Shown piece after piece: positions 8,165 to 64,000 of a stretch of DNA of 64,000 bases. Position 1 is the stretch's first letter. Every line of letters begins with the position of its first letter. The notes below the pieces were generated by a model. That model saw only the letters and a program-made list of their open reading frames with translations. It had not been told where the DNA came from and did not search any database. The stretch is from positions 868,001 to 932,000 of the forward strand of contig JAIXMN010000004.1 of the NCBI GenBank assembly GCA_025716815.1. Direction: 5' to 3'. Origin of the DNA: Dichotomocladium elegans (lineage: Eukaryota; Mucoromycota; Mucoromycetes; Mucorales; Lichtheimiaceae). Both the position numbers and the translations under genes were made by a program.

Positions 8165-9140
8165 ATACACCGTCTCTCGTTCTTTTCATACTGATTTTCC
8201 CTCCTCAATTCTACCTCTGATAATGAAATAATGATAGTTAGTTACTTGCGCACTTAATGCACCTTGTTGTGATTTGAATCGGGATGGAATACCCACAGAT
8301 CCGGTTTATAAAGTCGTCTGCCCCTTCTCACTTTCGCGTCTAGAGCATATCTTTAAAATAACAGGAGTATATCTGCGTGGACACCATGTTCGTTTGTATT
8401 GTCTTACTTCAGTTTATCTGCACTAATATTATCGTCCGCATGTCCACATATGAGTAGCTTCAAACCATTCAATTAATCATAAGCGATATAAAAATCCTAC
8501 TCATGTTTCTAGATTGATCTGACCAGCAACCTTTGGCAAAAAAGCATTAAAGGCTTTTGGTATGAGGGTCATCGCATGGCATAGATCAGCGAAGTATCGG
8601 ATACCCTTTGGGTGGTAACGAATTCGAAGATGGCTTCGTCAAGCGAACGGTCTTGGGGCCGCCATTGCGTCCGTCACGTGATGCCCAACAACGTTTGTTG
8701 GCTGAGGGTATTAAAACCACGCGATACTTCGCATCGTAGATCCCATGGCCCCGCGACCTGGCAGCGTTTTCAAAATATCATGTTCATCGCATTATTAAGT
8801 TATGGAAATACTATACACATTAGAACTTGGCAGATCCTAACGTGTTTTACACTGGTTTCCAAAATTGAAGTCGCTAGATCACAAAATAGAAGTCGCGTCT
8901 TGTCCAGAAAACTATATGCATGATGACAAAGCAAATGTCGCACAAAAAAGCTTCCATATCTACATTAGTAAATGAGCAATCTCTCTCTTTTTTTTTTTTA
9001 CAAAGATGGGCAAGACCATGTCGTTGCTGAGGAAATGTACTCTCTTCAGTACGTCTATCGTCGCACATAATATCTTCTGCACAATGTACACCGACAAGGA
9101 TAAGATCAGTTTTTCAAATTGATTTTTGAGAACGTCTTGA
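8165..9140. other. Intergenic sequence left of transposon relic
   Basis: No supported gene. The 3' UTR of the MAPEG gene probably occupies the first 100-200 bases. The rest is low-complexity AT-rich DNA with broken short frames, probably partly transposon-derived given the relic that follows. Confidence 0.4.
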
Positions 9141-10020
9141 GTGGCATCAGCTGCTGCAAAACAGCTAGGGGTCCATGTTCGGTCAGTTCAGCAATGGGCA
9201 TCACAGTGTGAGAATGGCCCTGGCAACATTTTTAAGAGACGAAGAGGCGGATGTCGTCCATGTATTCTCAACGAAGACCATAAGAGTGCAATTTTAGAAT
9301 GGTTTGATGACCATCCGTCAATTGTCCTAGAACAACTGATGGAGCAATTGCTCCAAAGATTGAAGGGTCTTAAATGTCACTGAAAAAGCACAGTTTTAGC
9401 CTTTAAAAGAAATGATGATGCAAAGACTTTAGAAAAAACTGTGTTTTCCTTGACGAATCTGATTCTACATTAACATGGAGCGCAGCATGGCATGCTCCAA
9501 GAAAGGGACTTCTTGCTGTAGTTACAGTGCCAAAAACAAGAGCGAAAATAACTACCATCTTGGGAACAATTTCGGTATCATGCATCATTAATTGTAGCTT
9601 GAGACTCCTACAACCACCAGCCAAAAAAGAAAAAAGAGGATAGTCCATAGCTGAGAGCAAAGGAGATGTACCTGGACACTATCTTAATTTCTTAAGGCTA
9701 CCATGGATGAAATGGGTAAGTATGAACATATGAAGAGACATTACGTATTTGATAATGGATAATGAACCTACTCAAAAGACTGAGGATATCTCTAAATACA
9801 CCGAGTCTCGAGGATATCGATGCGCTTATATTCCATCCTACTCGCGTAAATTCAATCCTATTGTGCATTTTGGATCGGTTGTGAAGAGCAAAGTAAAATC
9901 GAATAGGTTCTTGGAAAGTGAGACACTGATGACCCGAATCAGTGAAACTTCGAATAGCTTAAAGTTGAGCGATTTCTAAGGATACGTCTCTCATTCTCAC
10001 AAGTGTCTAGTTAATTGACT
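9141..10020 (+). mobile_element. Decayed IS630/Tc1-mariner transposase
   Basis: The plus strand reads a helix-turn-helix part (AAKQLGVHVRSVQQW, about 9155) and a linker with PSIVLEQLMEQLLQRLKGL. It then passes through many stops and shifts across the DDE core (about 9440-9660). It recovers as ATMDEMGKYEHMKRHY, SRGYRCAYIPSYSRKFNPIVHFGSVVKSKVK and LMTRISETSNSLKLSDF. The SP-x-FNPIVHFGSVVK block corresponds to the family's final catalytic motif (usually SPELNPIE-FW-VVK), with the acidic residue missing. At least three frames are needed, so it is a dead copy. No clear terminal repeats were delimited. Confidence 0.82.
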
Positions 10021-16599: not shown

Positions 16600-16745
16600 C
16601 GCCAGTTACAGTGATATTCGTTATAACGATACACTTTATGAAGAACAAAATTGCCAGGTAGGGCTTATTCCAATTCGCTATAGTGATAATTCGTTATAGT
16701 GATGCGATTTCCTGGAACCGAGGGTATCACTATAACGGGGCGGCC
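16600..16745. repeat. Clustered TTCGYTATARYGAT repeats (terminal-repeat-like)
   Basis: Three direct copies of the motif TTCGYTATARYGAT (about 16617, 16674, 16689) and one inverted copy (ATCACTATAACG, about 16725) fall within 130 bases. CAGT-type ends nearby (CAGTGACCGCCAGTTACAGTG) resemble the terminal repeats of pogo/Tigger or other Tc1-mariner relatives. It sits directly beyond the 3' side of the minus-strand transposase relic, so it may be that element's end or a nested MITE. Confidence 0.45.
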
Positions 16746-16769
16746 ATTGTAGCTGGCTTTAGGGTTTGA

Positions 16770-17520
16770 GGTTTGAAAACTTACGCTACGTACATGGTAT
16801 CAAACCGCTCTGAGGTAGCATACCTATCCATCTCCTCCATTGTATCCTTAAAGCAGAGGCGATGTTCAGTTGCGGCTCGCCTCTATTGCAACTTTGAACT
16901 GCTCCGCTCTCTTTCCTTTCTTGGCTGGTAGCTGTCCGGATCTATAGCTTACCATTCTGGTTTTTTTTTTCTCTTGCCCTTGATATCATAATTATTGTGG
17001 ATGTTTATTTCCTGGACTATGCCATGGTGCGTTTCATGGTCATATGGATTCCAGACTCATCAAGGGCAATACAATTTCCTCTAAAGATATTATCTGTCAT
17101 AATCGATTAGCGCAACCAGTCAAAACATTTGAGAATCTTTATATTGCTATCCATGTTGACATTGGTCCCTTTTCAAGCCCTCAAATCTCTTGAGCAAGTT
17201 TCCCATGAGTTCTTCGAGGGGAAAGCGAGAGTGTGATAAAAGTGAGTAATCCGTGTTGGCTGTAAATTTGGCAGGCTTCATGGACTTACCAGTGTATAAT
17301 GGAAGAATTCTCATCAGCCTACGGATTCAAAGGTAAAAAAAAAGAAGACGATCTTTGGGTTCTTCGTTTCTTTAGAGGTTCTTTTTCATACCGCAACTCC
17401 CATCGCTGTGTTAAATGGACATGTATTCCTAGTTGCTTTCCTGCAGCTGATGCGCTCGAAACTTTCCCAAACATCAACTTAAAAAATTGAACCTTGTTGT
17501 GATCAGTGTAAGTTAGGTGC
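16770..17520 (-). mobile_element. Decayed Tc1-mariner transposase, minus strand
   Basis: Reading leftwards from 17520, one finds ASAAGKQLGIHVHLTQRW (HTH), then LEELMGNLLKRFEGLK (about 17210). Next comes ALDESGIHMTMKRTMA (about 17050, the first catalytic Asp block), and further on TMEEMDRYATSERFD (about 16800). The order matches the element at 9.1-10.0 kb. Stops and frame changes occur throughout, so it is a relic. It ends about 30 bases from the TTCGYTATARYGAT repeat cluster. Confidence 0.72.
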
Positions 17521-17522
17521 AT

Positions 17523-19470
17523 AAGTGAGCATAGGACTTGCTTCTTTCATTAGAATGTCAGTGTACTTTTGTTCTAAAATATGTATAGCAACAATCACGA
17601 AGTTACGGTTGCAAGATGGATCATGTAGGCATTCTGTATAGGAATAAATAGATTGAGGAGAGTATGTCTCCTCGTCAATAGTCTAATCCATGGGCTAGTG
17701 ACAGTCATTCTCATCAAACATCCTGTCCATGCTCATAAAAGAATTTGAATACTTAATTCAGAATGGTGAATGCATATGGAAGATGGTTTGGCGTGCTCTT
17801 TGTGCAAACTTACCTCTCCCTGATAATAGAGCATGCGCAATTAAATTTACCATTTTGGGTCAAAAAACGTTGAATCTGTGGAAACGATGTATATCGCGTA
17901 ACTGGCATTCATCACAGAGCATACATTTATCATTGCTTCTTAATGCTAACGGTTGTGTTCTTCTACTCGACTCGGTCTCTAGCATAAGCGCTTACTGTTG
18001 CTGAATGTCTTTATTGCTCCCATGAGTCGAGCGCTCTACTGCAGATTTTTTTTTTGCCGTCAAGAGTCTACAGATCTTAGGAGCAGATAGACTCTGTGCA
18101 TGAAAATCTCTTTGGGCCATGGGAAGTATGCTCCTATGCCATGCATAACAGGAATTTATCTTCAGAAGTCCAAAGAAGCACCTTATTGGTGTTCTTCGAA
18201 CACAGAATGTGGTCATATTTCACTCACTACTCGCTGGCAAAAACGGGGGAAAAGGCATGTTAAAATCTACGATGATTGCATTGACTGGGACGAACAAGAG
18301 ATGCTGAGGTATTTCTTCTTGGTATTCCAACATCAAATGTATTTTTATTGGGAGGGGTTGCTGCTGATAGCGTAATCCTCTGAGGTATTGTATATTGCGC
18401 TCTTATACAAACCGTCGCAGCTCAGCTCAGGATATTAGAAAGACTTGGGTTGTCGCTCTTTCTGCTTCAGCATTGTTATCTGGTATCCAGATGGACATGG
18501 TCAACACCATGGCTTTTCCTACATTGTATCTCCTTTATTTGCGATTTAAGAGGCGGATCAATAATAAATAAGCAAGGGTGATTTTTACCCGGGTTACGTA
18601 AAGCAATGGCTGGTTCTATCAATAGACGAGTTGGAAATTAAAAATAACTATGCGGGGTGCTTTCACCCAAGAAATAGTGATCCTTTGCACTAGTTCTTTT
18701 GAAAAGAAAACAATGAAATGCACCCATGGGTATATTGATAAAGAGTACATCGCTCCTTTTTCTCTAGCAATTTTAGCTAGGCACCCCCGGCAAGGTTCGG
18801 CTGGCATCACTGGAAAATCTAAAATTGTCCAAGCGCTAAGGTTCAATGGGCAACTTCACTTGTGTCACCATGCTTGCAGCTGCCTTTGATCATTTATTAT
18901 CGTACTACCATGAACCTATCGACAGTGTACAAAGTGCTTAATCAAATGACCATTTCTCACTCTTTTCCGGGACGGAAGGCCGTTCCGCTGTCGCATACAG
19001 TACACAATGTCACGAGGCTTGCATTTGCGATGAAGATTTGTGCGCATTTGTTGTGTTATTTTTCTATGGCGACGCTGATTTAAAGCTTGCTATCGAAAGA
19101 TGGTCACCATGGACAGATTTGATCAGCATTCTGATCGTGGCTCAAAACTCTTGCGCTTAACAGGCTCAAGCCAAAATCGAAGAAATAGGTATTCTGCAAT
19201 AGCCTTGTCAATTGAACAATTAAAACCACGCGCACGTTTTTTCTTCCCATTTCCTGATATGCATTGTTCATCTCTTTTACTACCCCGACCGGTCCAAAAC
19301 TTCCTTCCGCAAAAAGCCCCCCACCCGTTGCATTTTTCCACAAACTCTCTCTTTCGCTCTCTTTTATACACGCACACCCATTTCACCCGTCTTTCTGCAT
19401 TCTCAATCCTTTTGTCGCTCCTTCTATTTTCCCCAAAATATCAACTTCGCAACTTCGCTGATAGACAGCC
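17523..19470. other. Long gene-poor interval upstream of SSD1
   Basis: About 1.9 kb without a supported gene. Frames at 17729 and 18100 (about 90 codons each) have no recognisable domain and odd composition. From about 19230 onward the DNA is strongly pyrimidine-rich on the plus strand, likely the 5' UTR and promoter of SSD1. Confidence 0.4.
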
Positions 19471-44907: not shown

Positions 44908-47900
44908 TTAAGATGGTGGCGTGTTGTTACTGCTGGTGGGGGTGGGAGTTGCAGGAGGAAGAAATGGATTGATATTCGAGGCCGTCAAGGTTGCAATCAT
45001 GGAAGGGTTGATTGCGATGCTTTTCGTGCAGTCATTGGTCTTGTAGATGCCAACCAGTCTATCCGCTAATTCAAACATGTTGTTACGCAGGCTGATAATA
45101 ACAAACTGCGCATTCTTTGTTCGTTCGGCGATATAATTTGCCACAATTGAGACATTACGGAAGTCCAATGCTGCATCGATCTCGTCCATCACATATAATG
45201 GCGTAGGTTTGAAATGGTGCAACGCGAAGACGAGCGCGAGAGAGCTTAGCGTCTAATATAGCAAGTCGGTAATTTTGCTTATACATTGCCTATGTATTAT
45301 GGTATCCTCTACCTTCTCTCCACCTGATAAGTTCGAAATGTTCTTCCAGCTCTTCTTTGGAGGCATAACGCTAAAGACAATGCCTTCCGAGAAAGGGTCT
45401 AAACTGTCGACGAGCTCTAGCTCGGCATTACCTCCCATCGTAATCATCTACAGATCAAACAAGGCCTGTTACACAGGAACACGATAATCCCACGATTCTG
45501 TACCTGATACATCTCTTTGAGCTTCTGAGAAATAATGTTGAAACCATGCATAAACTCGTCCAGTCGTTGTTTGCGGAGTCTTTCCACTTCATTCTTGACC
45601 TCGTCTCGCTGCCGGGTAATTTCGTTCAGATCCTTCACACGCTCGTTGTACTCCTCTTCCCGCCGTCTGTACTCCTCCAGCACCGACAAGTTAGGTTTCG
45701 CGTTTTGTACAGACGCTACACGAGCCTTGGTTAAATTTGGGTCACTCGCATTTAATTCAGGGTCACCTTCAAGCTCTGCAATCTCTGCTTTCGTAGCTTG
45801 CAGAGATCTCAACAACCTCTTGAGAGTTTCCTCGTCAAATTCCTCGAGCTGCATCTTGCTTTCGGGCTCATTCCTGGATCGAACATAAGTTTGGGGTTAT
45901 ACATATTTTTCTGACTATGTTCGCGGATGGCTTACTTGTAGTTATGCAACGACAGTTTTGACCGCTGTTCTCTCCAGTGATTCGCCTTGCGCTGGTTGTC
46001 CATGACACTGCGTTGGTAATCCTCAAGCTTGCTTTTAATTTCAATTTGCGATTTTCGCAGGACATTGATCTCTTGAGTTTTCTTATCCAACTCCTTCTTT
46101 ATCTTCTCGGTCTGCGCCTTTTTCTCATTTACGCGCTACACAAAAATGATGAGTCGAAGAACGCATTTCTACTATACGATATACCTTTTTGGACTCGTCT
46201 GCTTCCCGCATGACCTGTGCAGCTTCTTTCGCCTTCTCCTTCGACTCCTCCTCTACCTCTTTGAGATCCGTTTCAATCTTCTCCTTCTCCTTCTCTGTCT
46301 TCTTGATGTTTGCCTCTAGCTTCGTGACATCTTTTTCGGCTTTGGCTTTTGCAACCATAGCTTTGGTAATCTTGTTGTTAAGCGAATCTATCCGTTTCTT
46401 CACATCGTCGACAACAATCTTTTGTAGCCGCAGATCCATGCCGCCTGCCTCCATGATATCTTCTTGGAGGGACTTGATCTGTTCCTCAATGTCAGCCGTT
46501 TTGTCTTTAAGCTCTTGCATTTCTTGTTGCAGACATTCAATCTCCCCCTCAATTTCGCTGTGCCGCTTGACGTCTTCCGGACTTGGTTTAACTTGGGCTC
46601 TAACAGTTAAATCGTTCGGATTTGAAGTTGTAGTGCATATCCTGAGTTCAAGTCACATGCTTACTTGAGCGTCGCAATGCGAGATTTTTCATCTGATAGC
46701 TGCTGATTCATGCTGGACATATCCATTTCAAGCTTCTCAAGTGCAACCTGCTTTCGAGGAAGACTTTCCTTCTTGGCCCGTAATGACATTTCGCAAGCAC
46801 GCTTCTCGTCAAGAACACCCTGTAGTTCATCCTCGATTTTGTCACGTTCGCGTTCCAATTTGACCACCATCTCTGCAGTAACACCATCATCCTTAAAGCG
46901 CGAATCCATGGCACCTCGAAGTTGTCGGTTTCCGCCACCAGTCATGGCACCAGATTTCTCAATAAGTTTGCCGTCAAGCGTAACGACACGCCAGCGCTTG
47001 TGACCATAAGCAATGCGGTTTGCTTGCTGCATATTCTCAGCAACGAGTGTATCTTGCATCACGCTATAAAATGCTGGCAAGAATTTCTTGTCTTTTGGTT
47101 TGATTAGATCGAAAAGCCTAGGGACGTCCTCAGGGGTATTGATTTTATCGTGCCACTGTTTTTCAAGCTTTTCCAGAACAGTAAAGACGCCTCTTCCTAG
47201 ATTGTTTTTGCGCAAATATTCGATGCATGCTTGACCAGCCTCCACTGTCTCAACAACAATATTGTCCAAAGCTGGACATGCTGTTGACACCGCAACGTCA
47301 TATTTGTCATCAATAACACCTAGACTACCTAGCCGATTCTATGACAAATTTCAGTACGTCCCACACAGCATGGTAGGATATGACTCACATAGATTCCTTT
47401 GATGCGCCCCGAATCCCGCATTCGTAGCAAACTGTCAAGAACTTTTCCCCTGCTTTGTGATTGCTGAAGTGACATCTTCGCATCATCGGCCTTTTGACGG
47501 GCAACACTCAGCTGATTTCTGCAGTTCCTTTCCTTCTCTTCGATAGACTGAGGATAGTTTCTTTCAGCACCTAATACTGCTCCTGCACATGCTTTCTTAC
47601 CTTGGTTTTGCTCTCTAACTCTCCAATCTCTTTCTGAATCAGTTTGATTTCCTTCGGCAATGTTTTGCTTTCGGCGTGCTTATTCCTTATTGATTCTTCA
47701 AGCATCTTTAATTGCTCCTCCGCTTCTCGGAAGGCTTTCTCACCAGACGATAACTTTTCTGCAAGGAGCTCGCGCTCGGATATCTTGACGTCAATGTGTT
47801 TCTTCTTTTCATTGATTTTTTCTGTCCAGGGAGCAAGCTTCCTTTGGTGTTCCTCGATCTTGGACATGTAGTCATCTGTTTTGCCTTTCAACTCAAGATT

Positions 47901-49787
47901 GATTTCCTCCAGCTTTTTTTCTTCCTCTTTAAGCTGTTTCTCAAGTTCCTTGAGGTCTTTTTTACGCTTTATAAGGTCGTCACCATTCTTTTTGATAGCC
48001 TCTCGCGCTTGGGTACGCCCTTCTCGATCCTGTATGCCTCATTGATGAGACCCATTGGTAATTTTTTGAGTTCAATGTGTATGTGGGTAGGTATACCTTT
48101 TGTAATGAAACTTCGGCTTTCTCCATCTTGCTTATGAGGTGTTCTTTCCGCTCGCGCAGTTGCACGTCTTCCTTTTCATACTTGGCATGGCGTTTAAGAA
48201 TTTTTTCCGTTTCAGCATCAAGGACCTGCGTTATCCGTAAGTCATTTATACAGTGACTCCTGTCTTATCCGGGCCTCACGTTGTATTCTTTTGTCGTTTC
48301 TTGGTAAACCTTGTCGAGTTCTTTGACCTCTTTCTCGAATTCAATATGGTTTGATTTCTCCTCCTCGAGTTTTTGCTTGAGCTCTTGCTGATAGAAGTAT
48401 TTAACAGATTTTATACTATTGAATTCAACTTAGACCAACATACCACCGCCTTATTTGCTGTTTCGATGTTTGTTTGTGCCTCGTAGGCATATACTTGATA
48501 GAGCTCATTCCTTCTGCGTGCTAATTCGTTTTCGCTTTCAAGATAATTCTCAGCTTCTTGTTTCTTCTCCTAAAGAAGGAATTAACAGAGTGACCTTTTT
48601 TGCTTCATCGTTGATCTTTACCTCAAGACTGTCTTTTTCTTTTCCAACATAGCGAGCCCGATTCAATTTTTCAACTCGCTCTTCGTTGATGGTCTCAAGT
48701 TTGCCATTTGCAGCTTCGATAGGTTCCTTATATTTTGATGTACCGATGATATCCTCGAGATATTCCAAAAGACCATCGTCGTTCTCATCCTTTGCCTTTG
48801 GTTTCATCAGTGCGATCGATTCGACTTCACCCTGATTGTGTTATATTGAACGCTTTTAGGCGTATGAGTTGTATACGTAATGGTCAGAGCTTACCTGTAA
48901 AATCAAGAATCGCTTGTGGTCAAGGTCAATGCCTCGCTCTCGCAGCAGTGCTGTAACTTCGGTGTAAGAGCTCGCTTTATCATTGATGAAGTATTTGCTG
49001 GAATTATTGCGATATGCATGGCGTGAAACCACCAGCTTTGAATTAGGTACTCTTTCGTATTCCTTGGGCGTGTCCTGGATCAAATTTGCTTTAGAAAGCC
49101 ATCATCCTCATGAAAAAAAGACTTCCGCTGCTTCTTACGCCATCAATAATCATCTGGAAATGAACTTCAACTGAACAAGACGTGCAATTTGGGTACTTTG
49201 CAGAGTTGTGAATCAGCTCCGAGAGCTTTCCTTGACGCATCTTATTTGCACGGTAGCCAAAGACAAAGAGTAAGGAGTCAATGACGTTCGATTTACCGGA
49301 TCCGTTCGGACCGACGACTATTAGATACATGTCAGGTGAGCACGATAAAGGTATCTGCACAATTGCAACATACTGGCACTGAACGACTATTGAAACGTAT
49401 TTTCTACATTAGAAAGAAAACCGTTAATTGGCGCTATTCCATGCTTACCTTTTGAAAAGGACCAATGACCTGCCGTCCAGCATAAGACTTGAAATTATTG
49501 AGCACCATCTTGGTAATAACGAGACGAGGTTTTCGCTCTTCTGATTCCTTGGACTTTTCTTGTGCATGGACCTGAGGGGCGAACGACACTCGGCGGTCAT
49601 CGTTGCTAGCCTGAGTTTGCCGACCTGAATCTCTCAACGAAGACGGAATCTGATCAACGTTGGGCAGCAGGGTGGCATCAGTCTGCATGGGTTCCTGTGA
49701 TGATCTGACATTGGTTTCTTTAAAGTCAGTGTCGTTTATCGTGTTATTCTCATCAACATGTCGCTTTTTTCGAGGTGGTTGTGTCAT
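44908..49787 (-). CDS. SMC4: Condensin subunit SMC4
   Basis: SMC4 pairs with SMC2 in condensin to compact mitotic chromosomes. Start at 49787. The head reads LVITKMVLNNFKSYAGRQVIGPFQK (first exon, ends 49449), SFSA on a 13-nt microexon (49386-49374), then VGPNGSGKSNVIDSLLFVFGYRANKMRQ (Walker A). Next come DHKRFLILQGEVESIALMKPK (Q-loop), about 350 residues of coiled coil, and the hinge (ACPALDNIVVETVEAGQACIEYL, GAMTGGGNR). A second coiled coil, NISNLSGGEK (signature) and LYVMDEIDAALDFRNV (Walker B) follow. It ends with a Pro/Thr-rich tail after PSMIATL. Many introns of about 50-70 nt interrupt the coils; not every border was fixed. SMC4 rather than SMC2 is indicated by the long N-terminal extension and LSELIHNSA. 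Confidence 0.95.
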
Positions 49788-59580: not shown

Positions 59581-60084
59581 ATATTTTAAGATCATCATGG
59601 ATGTTGGTAACTGGGTTTGATGCCACAAATCTTTAATGGAAGTACAACTGAATATGCGAATAGCCATTGGATGGTTGATCAAATCACCGGACAATCACTG
59701 AACGAGGCTGCATGACAATAAATCGTATCTGATTTCCTGAGAGACACTGAAAAGTGAGCACGATATTGAATGTCCTGGATGCTTTATTATACAGCCGTGC
59801 AGGTTTTTCTGAGGAACAGGATAACTAAGACAAAAACTGTGGTCTTGATGGCACGGTTGTGTGATAAATGACTATAGGAGATGGAGGTCTATGATTTCCT
59901 GGCCTGGAACTGATAAGGTCGAGGCCCGTAACTTTTAGGTCTGATTTTTTCTTCAGCTTTCAGGTTAGAGAGCGATTTGCCAGTGAGAGCGAGAGGTAGA
60001 TGATCCGTTTTTTTGAGAGAGAGAGTCATTTGTAGGCAAAGCATCTGGCGCTTCTTGGCGCTGCTTTTTCGACCTTTTAATTGC

Positions 60085-60850
60085 TTCGTAGGTCCCGTGT
60101 ACTTCCATACCAAATCCCAACAAATCAAGGCATACAGGACCAAAACGTTCGGTCGGCTGAACGAATTAAGAGCAGCCTGTAAGACGCATTTGCTTTAGCA
60201 CCGCCTGTCTGAGGAGCGAAGGCGCACTCTGGTTCTGGATGACTTTCTCAGCTTCCTCTGTGTAAGGTCCGAGGTGTCTGCCGTTCTCTGCAGATTTTAC
60301 CACTTGCAGATATTAAGCTTGTCCGAGATTTAAAAGAGAAGTCTGGTAGCATCGCAGTCTTTTTTTTTTGGAAACTGGTTAGCTCATAAGACTCGATTCC
60401 ATGAGCCTGTACGTGGCAAAGGCTTCAGGCAGCTCCTGCGGAATCATACATTTGAGGTTTACCTGATAGACAAGTTCAAAACCAATCAACGTTGTCCATC
60501 CATTACGGTTTACCTCAGGATGGCCTCCATACTCTTTGTCATGGTCTTTGAGCTATGAAATTCATTCTAGAGCTTTTTCTTCAAAAGTGTAACGAAGTCA
60601 TCGACTTCTGTAGATGTCCCAGTAAAGACAATGACCCAGTACGTTGGATGCGTAACCGAAAATTTGCAACTTATGCATACCATTCGCGTCCTGTGTGTTT
60701 CCGGCCAGGTACACCAGAAGGTCTCAGAGAAGATTTATGGCCACGACCGCCAAAGCTACGCGGTCATGAAACACATGCCGATGACAATAAATCCATAAAA
60801 CCGATCAAGTTTACGCGATTCGATGCTTCACTGATTCCTATCATCGTCAA
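60085..60850 (+). pseudogene. Decayed Fanzor (TnpB-like) C-terminal half
   Basis: Read with several stops and shifts: YFHTKSQQIKAYRTKTFGRL (about 60100), which parallels FRYTKQLQDHTRKTKRYRRL of the better copy downstream. Then comes TLVLDDFLSFLCVRSEVSAV (about 60230), parallel to TLSVPNYDDGYLAAKNRVSV. Next, IKLVRDLKEKSGSIAV-FFFGNW (about 60320-60378) and RFHEPVRGKGFRQLLRNHTFEVYLIDKFKTNQRCPS (about 60385-60490, in two parts), the block that leads into RuvC-II and the zinc finger in Fanzor/TnpB proteins. The position usually occupied by the RuvC-II acidic residue reads Lys (LIDKF), and the zinc-finger second Cys is lost. A weak RuvC-III-like tail runs to about 60850. Clearly inactive. Confidence 0.7.
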
Positions 60851-61480
60851 CTTCTCGTTTTCCGAGTGGCCGGTGGCCGCAGGAATCTCAAGCTACATTT
60901 AATGATACATGATGCCGAAATTACTCCCAGGATGGTAATTGTTATCGCTCTTGGTTTCGGCACTGGAACTACGGCAGAAGTCCTCTTTTTGGGACCATGC
61001 CATGCTGCGTTTCATGTTAATATGAAATCCAGACTTATCAAGGAAAACACGGTCTTTTCTAAAGTCGATGTCGGTCATGCTCCTATCGGTGCACCCAGTC
61101 AAGACGTTCTTCGATCTTTGCATCACTATTCCTGTCTACATACTGAAACAGAGCCTTCTTCAGTGACAAGCTGCATTCATTTTTCATAGAGTTGCTTTCG
61201 ATGCTCTAAGACCCTCAAATCTCGGAACCAATTGCTCCATCAGGTGCTCTAGGACGATTGATGGATTCTCATCGATCCATTCTAAAATAGCACTGTCCTG
61301 CTCTTCCCTGAGAATACGTGAACGACCTCTGCCTCTAACTTTCTTAAAAATGCTTTCAGGGTTCCTTTTCATACTGTGACGCCATCATTACGCTCAGCAA
61401 ACATGGATTCCTAGCTGTTTTGCAGCAGCAGATACAACTCAAGTCCTTCTCGAACATCAGCTTGAGAAACCTGATATTAT
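60840..61480 (-). mobile_element. Tc1-mariner transposase relic, minus strand
   Basis: Reading leftwards: a damaged HTH (about 61450), FKKVRGRGRSRILREEQDSAILEWIDENPSIVLEHLMEQL in parts (61370-61240), VLTGCTDRSMTDIDFRKDRVFLDKSGFHINMKRSMAW in parts (61120-61010; DKSGF is the DESGF block with the Asp kept), then LEIPAATG-type sequence at about 60860, where it abuts the Fanzor relic. The C-terminal catalytic half is absent. Confidence 0.75.
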
Positions 61481-61682
61481 GTTTGTCGATGTAGCCATGT
61501 TTAAAGTCTGATTCTTTCATCTGAATGTCTATATCTTTTTTGCTTGCGGATACACGTATATACCAACAAGGTCAGGATAATCCCTGCATGATAGACTACA
61601 TAGATATTCTGTGTGAGAGCTAATGTATTGAAGAGAGCACATTTCCTCGTCAACGCCATAGTGCATTGGTTCAGAACAGCCC

Positions 61683-61870
61683 CGTTCATCAACGACATTG
61701 CAGTAAAAAAACAACTAGGAATCCATGTTCGTTCAGCACAGCGATGGGCATTACAGTAAGAAAAGAACCCTGACAGCATTTTAAGAAACGTAGAAGCAGA
61801 GGGCCGATCGTGTATTCTCAATGAAGAGCATTAGAAAGTTACAATACATTTATTGTTCTAGAATGCAATT
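61683..61870 (+). mobile_element. Tc1-mariner transposase fragment (HTH)
   Basis: The plus strand reads AVKKQLGIHVRSAQRWALQ, a stop, then EKNPDSI and GRSCILNEEH, matching the N-terminal part of the 9.1-kb element. Together with the minus-strand relic it forms a head-to-head arrangement. Confidence 0.65.
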
Positions 61871-62335
61871 GTCGCTAAAAATAGCCGTATTCAAAAGAAT
61901 CCTATATCGAGAAGAGTAAGTTATTCTTGGAAAAAACAAAGAACTATCGGAGTGTGCTTGTCTCTTTGTCAATGAGCCATTCAGCTAGGAGATTGTAACT
62001 CCGACGCTGGTTATCAAATGGAGTAATAATATTCAGAGAAATTATTCATTATGTACCTACACTTCCTGAACGTATGGATAAGGATGACAGCAGTGTCGTA
62101 TTTTGTTGTGTTGTAAGAGACTGAGAGAGTACGAAAAGAAGTACAATCTTCCTACACTACACGAGTGCCGGATATATATCGGATTATTCTTGAGATGGTC
62201 TCTTGGAATTACTTGTTGGAATTGTTTGGTATTTCATTGTTGATTTCAGACCGCCCTCACGTCGGTATGTAAAATCTCATAAAAGAACCCAGTGGGAAAA
62301 AGAAAATGACTGTGGAGATGGATCATTGCTGACAC
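61871..62335. other. Upstream flank of the Fanzor gene
   Basis: Contains no coding feature. Any left end of a Fanzor-carrying transposon should be in this stretch, but no terminal inverted repeat could be paired because the right end lies beyond the window. Confidence 0.4.
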
Positions 62336-62343
62336 TATAAATA
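62336..62343 (+). promoter_or_regulatory. TATA box upstream of Fanzor gene
   Basis: TATAAATA lies about 170 bases before the ATG at 62515, consistent with the gene retaining its own promoter. Confidence 0.5.
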
Positions 62344-62514
62344 GTGATGCTCAAGCAAACTGTACCTTTCCATTATCCACATACAAAACTATAGCCCATA
62401 CAGCCTACAGAAAATAACACAGCACCACATTTACGGTAGAAAGGTAATACGGCCGCTTTCATACTCGGCTCTGCGATACTAAGAAATAATATACCCTAGG
62501 TCTTCACCCACCAA

Positions 62515-64000
62515 ATGGCCCAACCCCACCGCCCCGTCATTCCCGAAGGCATGCGCACTGGCCACAGCATTGACCGCACTGGCCGTATAATTGGGGTGAA
62601 ATCGTCCATACGGGGCATCGGCTGGCGACAGCAGTACCGTGAACGTCTGTATCAGTTGATTGACCTTGTCCACAACACCACAACACAGGCGTATGCGTTC
62701 GCCAAATATATTTTCATCAACGAGGCAGCGCGCGATCCAACTTTTAACATCCAGGAAAACATCACGGGGTAGTTCTTTTCAGAAGTTCGGCTCTCCATGG
62801 TTAACAAAGCCGAATGCCGAACCCAAGGTGAAACTGCCCGCATCCGAGAACTAATTAATCGCCACAAGGATGAGTATCTTCGGATATCCGGATACGACAG
62901 GCCTGCGTTCCCTTATCCCCAGCAATGTCCTTCTTACGAAGGCACCAAGATTTATACTGCTTACGTGCATAATGCCCACATGCGGCTCGGGCAACACCTT
63001 CGGCGTGTCATCAATGTCATCCTGAATCTTCGTCAGCGAAAAGCCGACCGCAAGCGAGAGTTAATCGCACAGGGCCTAAGCCCCGATCAAGTACGCCAGG
63101 ATCTTTATGAAACCATCACCCGGCATGCCACAGGATTCAAGCTAGCAATTGCCCGTCGAGGTGTTTTGAGGGAAGACATTAATGCCGAACCTGGATTTCT
63201 TCGGGAAGCATACGATATCTTACAGCCTGTCTTAGACGCTTACCCCCGAAACCACCAATTCCAACACAAGAGTATCTATTACGACGCCAAGGCCAATCCT
63301 GTTAAGCATTTCAACGCCTTCTTCCAGCTTGCACGTGTTTGTCAACAGAACGGAATACGCGGATTCAACTGTTTTCCACTTCATCGCTCGTGGTCACCAT
63401 GCTACATGGAGATCGATACGAAAATCCTTTGCTACCATATTCTGGGCTGCAAAATGGAATCCCACACAAGCAATATGGAGTACTGGAGACGGGTTGTAAA
63501 CCTGAAGTCAAGAGCTTTCAATCCCCAAGAATCCGAGCTGCTCCAATTCCGTGGGACTATTCACACAGACGGCGTCGGTGTTACTGTGTTCAAGAAGACA
63601 AATGGCCTTCAATCGGTTTTCGGACAGAGATTTGGCATCCAGAGCGAAGATATCGAGTACGTCGCCCCACAGATAGTCCGGAACGAAGACTATAGAGGGC
63701 AATGGGTCACCATTGATCCTGGCAGAAGAGACCTGTTGTATTGCGTTCATGAGAACTCGTCACCCGACAACCACCAGACCTTCCGATATACAAAGCAGCT
63801 TCAAGATCATACACGGAAGACCAAACGGTACCGCAGACTCCGAGAACGACTCAAGTTAGAGCGTCCCGAAGTCGCGTTGGCTGAGCAGAATCTATCTCAA
63901 TTTCAAAGTCATACGCTTTCCGTGCCCAACTACGACGACGGATACCTCGCCGCCAAGAACCGGGTCTCTGTAGTTCTCAAGTCTTTCTACGCGACAAACA
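62515..64000 (+). CDS. Fanzor-family RNA-guided nuclease (TnpB homologue), 3' partial
   Basis: Fanzor proteins are eukaryotic relatives of transposon TnpB and Cas12; characterised members cut DNA guided by an RNA made from their own locus. ATG at 62515 (context CACCAAATGG) opens a frame interrupted by one TAG at 62770-62772. The same frame is then open without a break to 64000, with an in-frame ATG at 62797. Features: a basic helical N-terminal region, QHLRRVINVILNLRQRKADR (about 63000), FRGTIHTDGVGVTVFKK (about 63545-63600, the strand-rich block before RuvC), and WVTIDPGRRDLLYCV, whose DPG is the RuvC-I motif (Asp codon 63715). Next is a basic RKTKRYRRLRERLK helix and a frame open to the edge. 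RuvC-II, the zinc finger, RuvC-III and the guide-RNA region lie outside. The TAG could be a true nonsense change, a read-through or a sequencing error; no intron in phase removes it. Confidence 0.85.

Follow-up and report, generated by a model that had tools for sequence, protein, structure and literature searches.

Fanzor1 genes carried by Tc1/mariner elements, with or without a transposase, have been known since 2013 (PMC3627910). That survey (Bao and Jurka 2013) describes PGv-1, PUl-1, and PUl-4, in which Fanzor1 is accompanied by a Mariner-like transposase or stands alone, and it reports that the lone-Fanzor1 Mariner elements have ends identical to those of Mariner elements and show TA duplications (PMC3627910); unlike the analysis presented here, the portions of the survey on which we draw do not treat guide RNA. 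Another element from the same survey, MCi-2 of Mucor circinelloides, resembles ours in coming from a Mucorales genome and carrying Fanzor in multiple copies (11), but it differs in that its duplications span 11-12 bp and no inverted repeats can be recognized. Fanzor copy numbers of up to hundreds have been mentioned elsewhere (PMC10711439). In Spizellomyces punctatus, the Spu-1 family (encoding SpuFz1, PDB 8gkh) likewise holds Fanzor1 in many-copy elements with inverted repeats, and is described as comprising 42 loci with full or partial genes and 134 “ghosts” that keep the RNA region without the gene (PMC10432273). Finally, PpFz1 of Parasitella parasitica (PDB 9cf0-9cf3) is, like the protein described below, a Mucorales Fanzor1; its omegaRNA is 75 nt long with a 7-bp SL1 and a 4-bp SL2, and all three solved Fanzor1 omegaRNAs are reported to have a 7-bp SL1 (PMC11423790).

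We analyzed a 64-kb stretch of DNA from Dichotomocladium elegans (Mucorales, Lichtheimiaceae), referred to here as the window, at whose right edge the original prediction had placed a Fanzor nuclease candidate of an early-diverging fungus, based on an open frame at 62773..64000, a pre-RuvC block, a RuvC-I DPG motif, and an upstream TATA box. Each of these features is present on the forward strand. Positions 62773-63999 are stop-free over 409 codons, the IHTDGVGV block lies at 63559-63582 (the block of a sister copy aligns with ETDGVGV of PpFz1), and the DPG with its putative catalytic Asp lies at 63715-63723, aligning with MDPG of PpFz1 and IDP of SpuFz1. A TATA motif at 62335-62344, 180 bp upstream of the ATG, recurs in 20/20 examined copies, including the window copy. 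The start of the predicted frame at 62773 is an effect of a TAG at 62770-62772 that breaks the true frame; the latter starts with the ATG at 62515 and runs for 85 codons before this premature stop. Read rightward in the same contig, the frame continues to L004:2428 (551 codons). Fanzor1 exon 1 extends from 62515 through the window edge at 64000 to about 64364 in contig C57, with about 97% DNA identity to other copies; a predicted intron follows at about 64365-64428 and exon 2 starts at about 64429, all on the forward strand. The assignments to the Fanzor family and to an early-diverging fungus hold, whereas the proposal of a nuclease gene candidate at this very locus does not: judged by its sequence, the window copy is a pseudogene, and the left end of its element was not found.

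The window Fanzor is one of many copies of a large transposon family rather than a single gene. Pieces of its protein recur at many places elsewhere in the genome at 95-97% identity, far beyond chance, and a genome search with the window piece returned at least 110 matches, a lower bound obtained from scoring 102 of 626 candidates. We examined in detail the best 20 of these (at least 110) copies, and refer to the closely related group that includes the window copy as class A. Upstream of the window gene, noncoding 5′ sequence of the class A element occupies 61904-62514 on the forward strand (BLAST identity to class A of 86% over 61904-62267 and 97% from 62268). It is preceded on the same strand, within the element, by a relic of a Tc1/mariner transposase at 61708-61831, which is 95% identical to class A and falls within a tblastn transposase match at 61700-61846. 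An inverted, decayed Tc1/mariner transposase piece abuts the element at 60992-61714 on the reverse strand (tblastn, 50% over 255 aa, E 6e-57). A left-end scan of the window found no element left end beside either the Fanzor gene or this inverted piece. The window also holds other traces of these families, namely a second, divergent Fanzor fragment at 60205-60498 (forward strand, 34% to class A over 123 aa), a decayed Tc1/mariner transposase copy at 8846-10015 with a left-end-like start bearing 7 mismatches, and, at 16606-17721 on the reverse strand, Tc1 transposase pieces together with pieces of the class A 5′ region. Separately, positions 46001-48000 show strong strand asymmetry (GC skew -0.185, AT skew -0.268), making them a pyrimidine-rich stretch.

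The remainder of the protein was read from sister copies. In copy L006, a 639-codon frame is open, and the ATG matching that at 62515 of the window sits 15 bases after the frame start. This frame stops short of the expected RuvC-III, and the missing part, CTNQNC...WNRDLAAALNM, is found downstream of its stop; we rejected the 639-codon frame as the entire protein, as the zinc-finger sequence resumes past a predicted intron. Intron boundaries CG/GTATGA...CAATAG/A fit between the frame and the downstream exon, and once this predicted intron is taken out (its length is 64-69 bp among copies, with 69 bp here and 64 bp for the window copy), the sequence reads CHGLLRCTNQNC...WNRD. The class B and class E genes that we read are interrupted at the same place and have a conserved second exon, whereas a more distant Fanzor of this genome, L001, has the same finger uninterrupted (CHGLLRCTNLNC...WNRD). 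Two copies carry splice-site variants, a donor AT in place of GT in L011 and an acceptor AA in place of AG in L024. After predicted splicing, the score rises from 404 to 437 bits against PpFz1 and from 152 to 181 bits against SpuFz1, in a comparison of L006 unspliced with L008 spliced, the spliced proteins of the two being identical.

We assign the window gene to the Fanzor1 family by its matches to solved proteins. After predicted splicing, the protein of a sister class A copy finds PpFz1 at E 1e-129 and SpuFz1 at 3e-52, and these two are its sole PDB matches at E 0.001. The original prediction had proposed looking to the right of the edge for the RuvC-II Glu, a CxxC...CxxC finger, and the RuvC-III Asp, and all three are found there. 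Besides the RuvC-I Asp in DPG, the E of EYKTS and the D of WNRD align with the corresponding stretches of SpuFz1, whose catalytic residues are D383, E541, and D606 (PMC11423790). The Glu lies six residues ahead of the first CxxC (class A EYKTSKCCPVC aligned with SpuFz1 EYKTSSVCPRC), which is the spacing given for the Fanzor-type RuvC-II Glu (Ealt) in PMC10711439; DEYKTS is present in 15/16 full-length copies, and L019 has YEYKTS with the Glu retained. Once the predicted intron is taken out, a C4 finger is followed by the RD of RuvC-III (CPVC ... CTNQNC ... WNRD). PpFz1 aligns with class A over most of the protein, including the E of DE(F/Y)xTS and WNRD, but the two aligned stretches are separated in PpFz1 by about 93 residues with no counterpart in class A. 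These extra residues are presumably the FRI insertion named in PMC11423790.

A profile search had also been proposed, and here the TnpB-type Pfam family PF07282 misses the window Fanzor. The unspliced class A frame scores 15.4 bits against a cut-off of 26.3, and the spliced protein has no PF07282 match at E 0.01. A Mucor relative (P0001) is likewise below the cut-off (20.5 bits), so PF07282 is a weak profile for this clade. As a means of finding Fanzor genes, PF07282 gave only three genomic matches, the window copy not among them, and it was replaced by a protein query. A search of a 5.8-billion protein collection returned 115 matches, the named ones fungal and none named D. elegans; the top-scoring match, from Mucor mucedo, covers 98% of the query at 47% identity, and others reach 51% identity across roughly half the query length. 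Among the Fanzor proteins that we read, those of classes A, B, and E terminate in tails rich in arginine, which in class E contain RG repeats (L054:3140-3310), and a role as a nuclear signal or in RNA binding is possible for such a tail. The distant Fanzor L001 (G000:C101:757892-761023) is about 33% identical, and a poor UUAUCG-loop hairpin (6/8 pairs) lies on its strand.

We then considered the element that carries the gene. Three class A copies that could be read to the left end have about 3.9 kb in common, from TATA(C/T)ACC... to ...AAAGTA. The left end begins with TATA in 23/23 flanks (a set that includes C79:1095643, which carries a class C left end, and excludes the window copy L005 as well as L020), and the right end reads AAAGTA in 20/20; these flank sites were located by matching the ends, and the inverted repeat is imperfect and was judged by eye. 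The flanks are suggestive of TA duplication at the element ends. Throughout the genome, the left-end 29-mer has 139 matches with up to 3 mismatches (control, 0) and the right-end 25-mer has 328 (control, 0). In L004, into which the window frame continues, 37 bp separate the element right end from the end of a hexokinase frame of the opposite strand (L004:2992-3030). The product of this frame shows 100% identity to a D. elegans protein.

The 1.4 kb upstream of the class A gene contain the broken start of a transposase with stops within, a relic only, but relatives with such ends retain more. L028 combines both ends with pieces of a transposase and shows no match to Fanzor; in L055, a left end, pieces of a transposase, Fanzor, and a right end all share one strand. 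Together, L085 and L054 make up a 6.9-kb element (class E) with 3 mismatches in its left end and an exact right end, which contains a stop-free 475-codon transposase frame and, on the other strand, a Fanzor of 722 aa through exon 2. The transposase of L057 differs from that of L054 at 1/475 residues and has a DDE_3 match of 1.8e-30; in the stretch of L057 that was read, Fanzor is reduced to its end. Fanzor genes in the class C and D elements that we read are partial or absent. Terminal repeats with TA, together with the unbroken DDE transposases of the relatives L054 and L057, place the family in the Tc1/mariner group on sequence grounds. In the parts of the Spizellomyces paper on which we draw, no transposase was found between the Spu-1 repeats (PMC10432273), whereas D. 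elegans has transposases with such ends.

It could be that the Fanzor genes of this genome are functionless passengers and that copy number results from the transposase alone; many Fanzor copies are indeed broken or partial, the window copy included, and the state of the class C and D elements fits this idea as well. Of the 20 examined copies, 16 encode a 709-aa protein after predicted intron removal, with no coding stop; the broken ones are L005 (the window copy), L018, L022, and L024. Pooled pN/pS among these 16 copies, which were selected as full length, is 0.23, and 38 nonsynonymous changes were seen versus 57 expected under a null in which the same mutation types are placed at random (49-65 being the 95% range and 42 the minimum across 2000 nulls). 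Amino-acid changes thus fall below expectation while the transposase of the same element is broken by stops, and the pairing of the hairpin described below is largely retained across classes. We consider functionless passengers improbable. The deficit of amino-acid changes relative to neutrality instead supports constraint on the Fanzor protein during or after the spread of the family. Between classes, Fanzor identity is 57% for A versus B and 53% for A versus E, with dS >1.6 in both comparisons, and we therefore claim no ratio at that depth.

The original prediction had anticipated a guide RNA at the unseen 3′ end, and hairpin covariation supports a structured RNA there. About 20 bp past the class A stop codon, GCGTCAG-TTATCG-CTGACGC forms a 7-bp hairpin, which we call SL1. 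A degenerate SL1 pattern has 130 occurrences at up to 1 mismatch, compared with 1 for the reversed control. In an alignment of 16 copies from classes A, B, C, D, and E, with rows hand-picked among loci containing the loop, 94.6% of cells are paired, and the constancy of the loop is partly by choice, the loop having belonged to the search patterns. The covariation score is 0.540 versus 0.257 in shuffles and was reached by 0/500 of them, slid controls are much lower, and 5/7 pairs are changed on both sides (reached by 6/500 shuffles); the relatedness of the copies weakens both the shuffle and the slid controls. The class E row (GCCATTG/CAATGGT) was located through a scan that required pairing. 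When it is left out, the covariation score is 0.433 versus 0.251, again reached by 0/500 shuffles, but covariation is weaker by two other measures: 4 pairs are changed on both sides, which 95/500 shuffles match, and further pair types are matched by 155/500. After SL1, many copies appear by eye to have a second small stem, SL2, with a UUCG-like loop; alignment A3 misplaces the class B SL2, so its pairing was judged by eye and left unscored. Past the stop codon, 24/279 columns vary among the 16 full-length class A copies, just one of them within columns 16-125. Folding of single sequences gives modest z scores of -1.5 (285 nt), -2.2 (122 nt), and -1.05 (right end), and we rejected a helix UUUUCC/GGAGAA that would close the class A scaffold, since by eye it is not conserved in class E and L061. 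The 64-kb window, outside which the scaffold lies, contains no hairpin with the SL1 loop at ≥7/8 pairs and one at 6, and Rfam returned no family in window positions 60000-64000 or in L004, L085, and L084.

A hairpin near a transposon end need not act as RNA, and in the measured copies it lies near the right end even in elements that lack Fanzor, as would be expected of a transposase binding site or a DNA cruciform. Yet the stem sequence varies while its pairing is largely retained, as is more readily expected of an RNA than of a DNA site, a scan of five loci found no such hairpin at the left end, and 7 bp is precisely the SL1 length of the three solved omegaRNAs. We assign a DNA site little probability. 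The hairpin near the right end is likely an omegaRNA scaffold.

To compare the position of this putative scaffold among elements, we measured where SL2 ends relative to the right end. In 27 measured copies (the SL2 end of L063 being approximate), SL2 ends 63-215 nt inside the right end and its orientation toward that end is constant; in class A the distance is 215 nt. No right end was found in 6/32 hairpin loci. The orientation of Fanzor, in contrast, varies. In the class A and B elements read with a gene, the scaffold lies 3′ of Fanzor on the same strand, whereas in class E it is about 2 kb away on the opposite strand, and the Fanzor pieces of L084, L086, and L030 are antisense to the scaffold too. 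A scan of L085 and L054 for the SL1 loop found a single hairpin and none behind the class E Fanzor, although a scaffold with another loop would escape such a scan. L058 retains both ends and the scaffold and has lost most of Fanzor, and is thus a ghost in the sense in which the Spizellomyces paper describes the term (PMC10432273). As described there, the 75-nt Spu-1 scaffold spans the right-end repeat, whereas the D. elegans scaffold is recessed and sometimes antisense to Fanzor. Because the orientation of the scaffold near the right end stays the same whether Fanzor is on the same strand (A, B), on the opposite strand (E), or missing (L058, L028), we tentatively suggest, at somewhat less than even odds, that the scaffold belongs to the transposon end rather than to the Fanzor gene, and that a shared pool of Fanzor may serve many element families in trans, including those that encode a transposase. 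Within the literature searched, and as far as the consulted portions of those papers extend, two observations appear to be new: a transposase flanked by ends of the kind that also flank the scaffold, and a scaffold position independent of Fanzor orientation. A search for Dichotomocladium elegans together with transposable elements found no paper, and among the matches listed for literature from 2022 on, none names both Dichotomocladium and Fanzor.

The recessed scaffold bears on where a guide could come from. One possibility is that the fixed sequence directly after SL2, inside the element, serves as the guide, so that every copy would carry the same guide and address one target, e.g., related elements. 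SL1 and SL2 alone are near the length expected from PpFz1 (75-nt RNA, 4-bp SL2), and the invariant stretch of class A (columns 16-125, 16 copies) ends about 150 nt short of the right end, as a fixed guide would have it. The 21-mer that follows SL2, however, has 85 genomic matches at up to 3 mismatches, 46 exact and 39 inexact, and 43/46 exact matches adjoin a listed hairpin. Of the exact matches elsewhere, C46:1638617 is between listed left and right ends, C101:1208997 is near Fanzor pieces, and the third, C51:299263, has no assignment. The placement of the 46 exact matches thus leaves no clear separate target for a fixed guide, and on that account we set this candidate aside. In addition, the stretch after SL2 is itself a predicted hairpin, and the sequence past SL2 varies between class B deletion copies. 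All told, a fixed internal guide seems unlikely to us. The favored alternative is a guide drawn from the DNA flanking the right end, which, with SL2 recessed by 63-215 nt, would require an RNA longer than the 75 nt of PpFz1.

The sequences next to the insertion sites were tabulated with one row per site for left flanks, and right-flank classes were assigned by hand. Among the matches listed, AT precedes TATACAC in 21/25 class C, 3/17 class A, and 3/9 class D sites, and 17/19 class A right flanks start with T; the right-flank counts leave out class B (4 sites among those listed). According to the respective reports, Spizellomyces has a conserved CA before the left end, taken as part of a target motif (PMC10432273), and PpFz1 uses ATN (PMC11423790). 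The AT in our flanks could equally reflect the target sites that the transposase prefers or belong to the element itself, and we claim no motif.

These results lead us to propose, with considerable confidence, that the window copy is a decayed, left-truncated, non-autonomous element of Tc1/mariner type (class A) carrying Fanzor1 and a likely omegaRNA scaffold, in a family that would rely on the transposase of relatives in trans, a guide from the flank, and repair of Fanzor-cut sites. Class A would most likely be moved by the transposase of its relatives. Fanzor would bind the scaffold RNA, with a guide presumably drawn from the DNA adjoining the right end, as in Spizellomyces. The resulting ribonucleoprotein would cut the site vacated by excision, and repair from the sister chromatid would restore the element, thereby raising its copy number. 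This cut-and-repair scheme follows ideas discussed for TnpB and Fanzor (PMC10432273).

These findings bear on the role that Fanzor plays for its transposon: a single fungal genome combines a nuclease gene with a likely guide RNA, a ghost element, and, between such ends, an unbroken transposase. With all of these parts in the D. elegans genome, excision and RNA-guided repair could be tested in one system, and its recessed and antisense scaffolds provide a natural test of the position that a guide must occupy.
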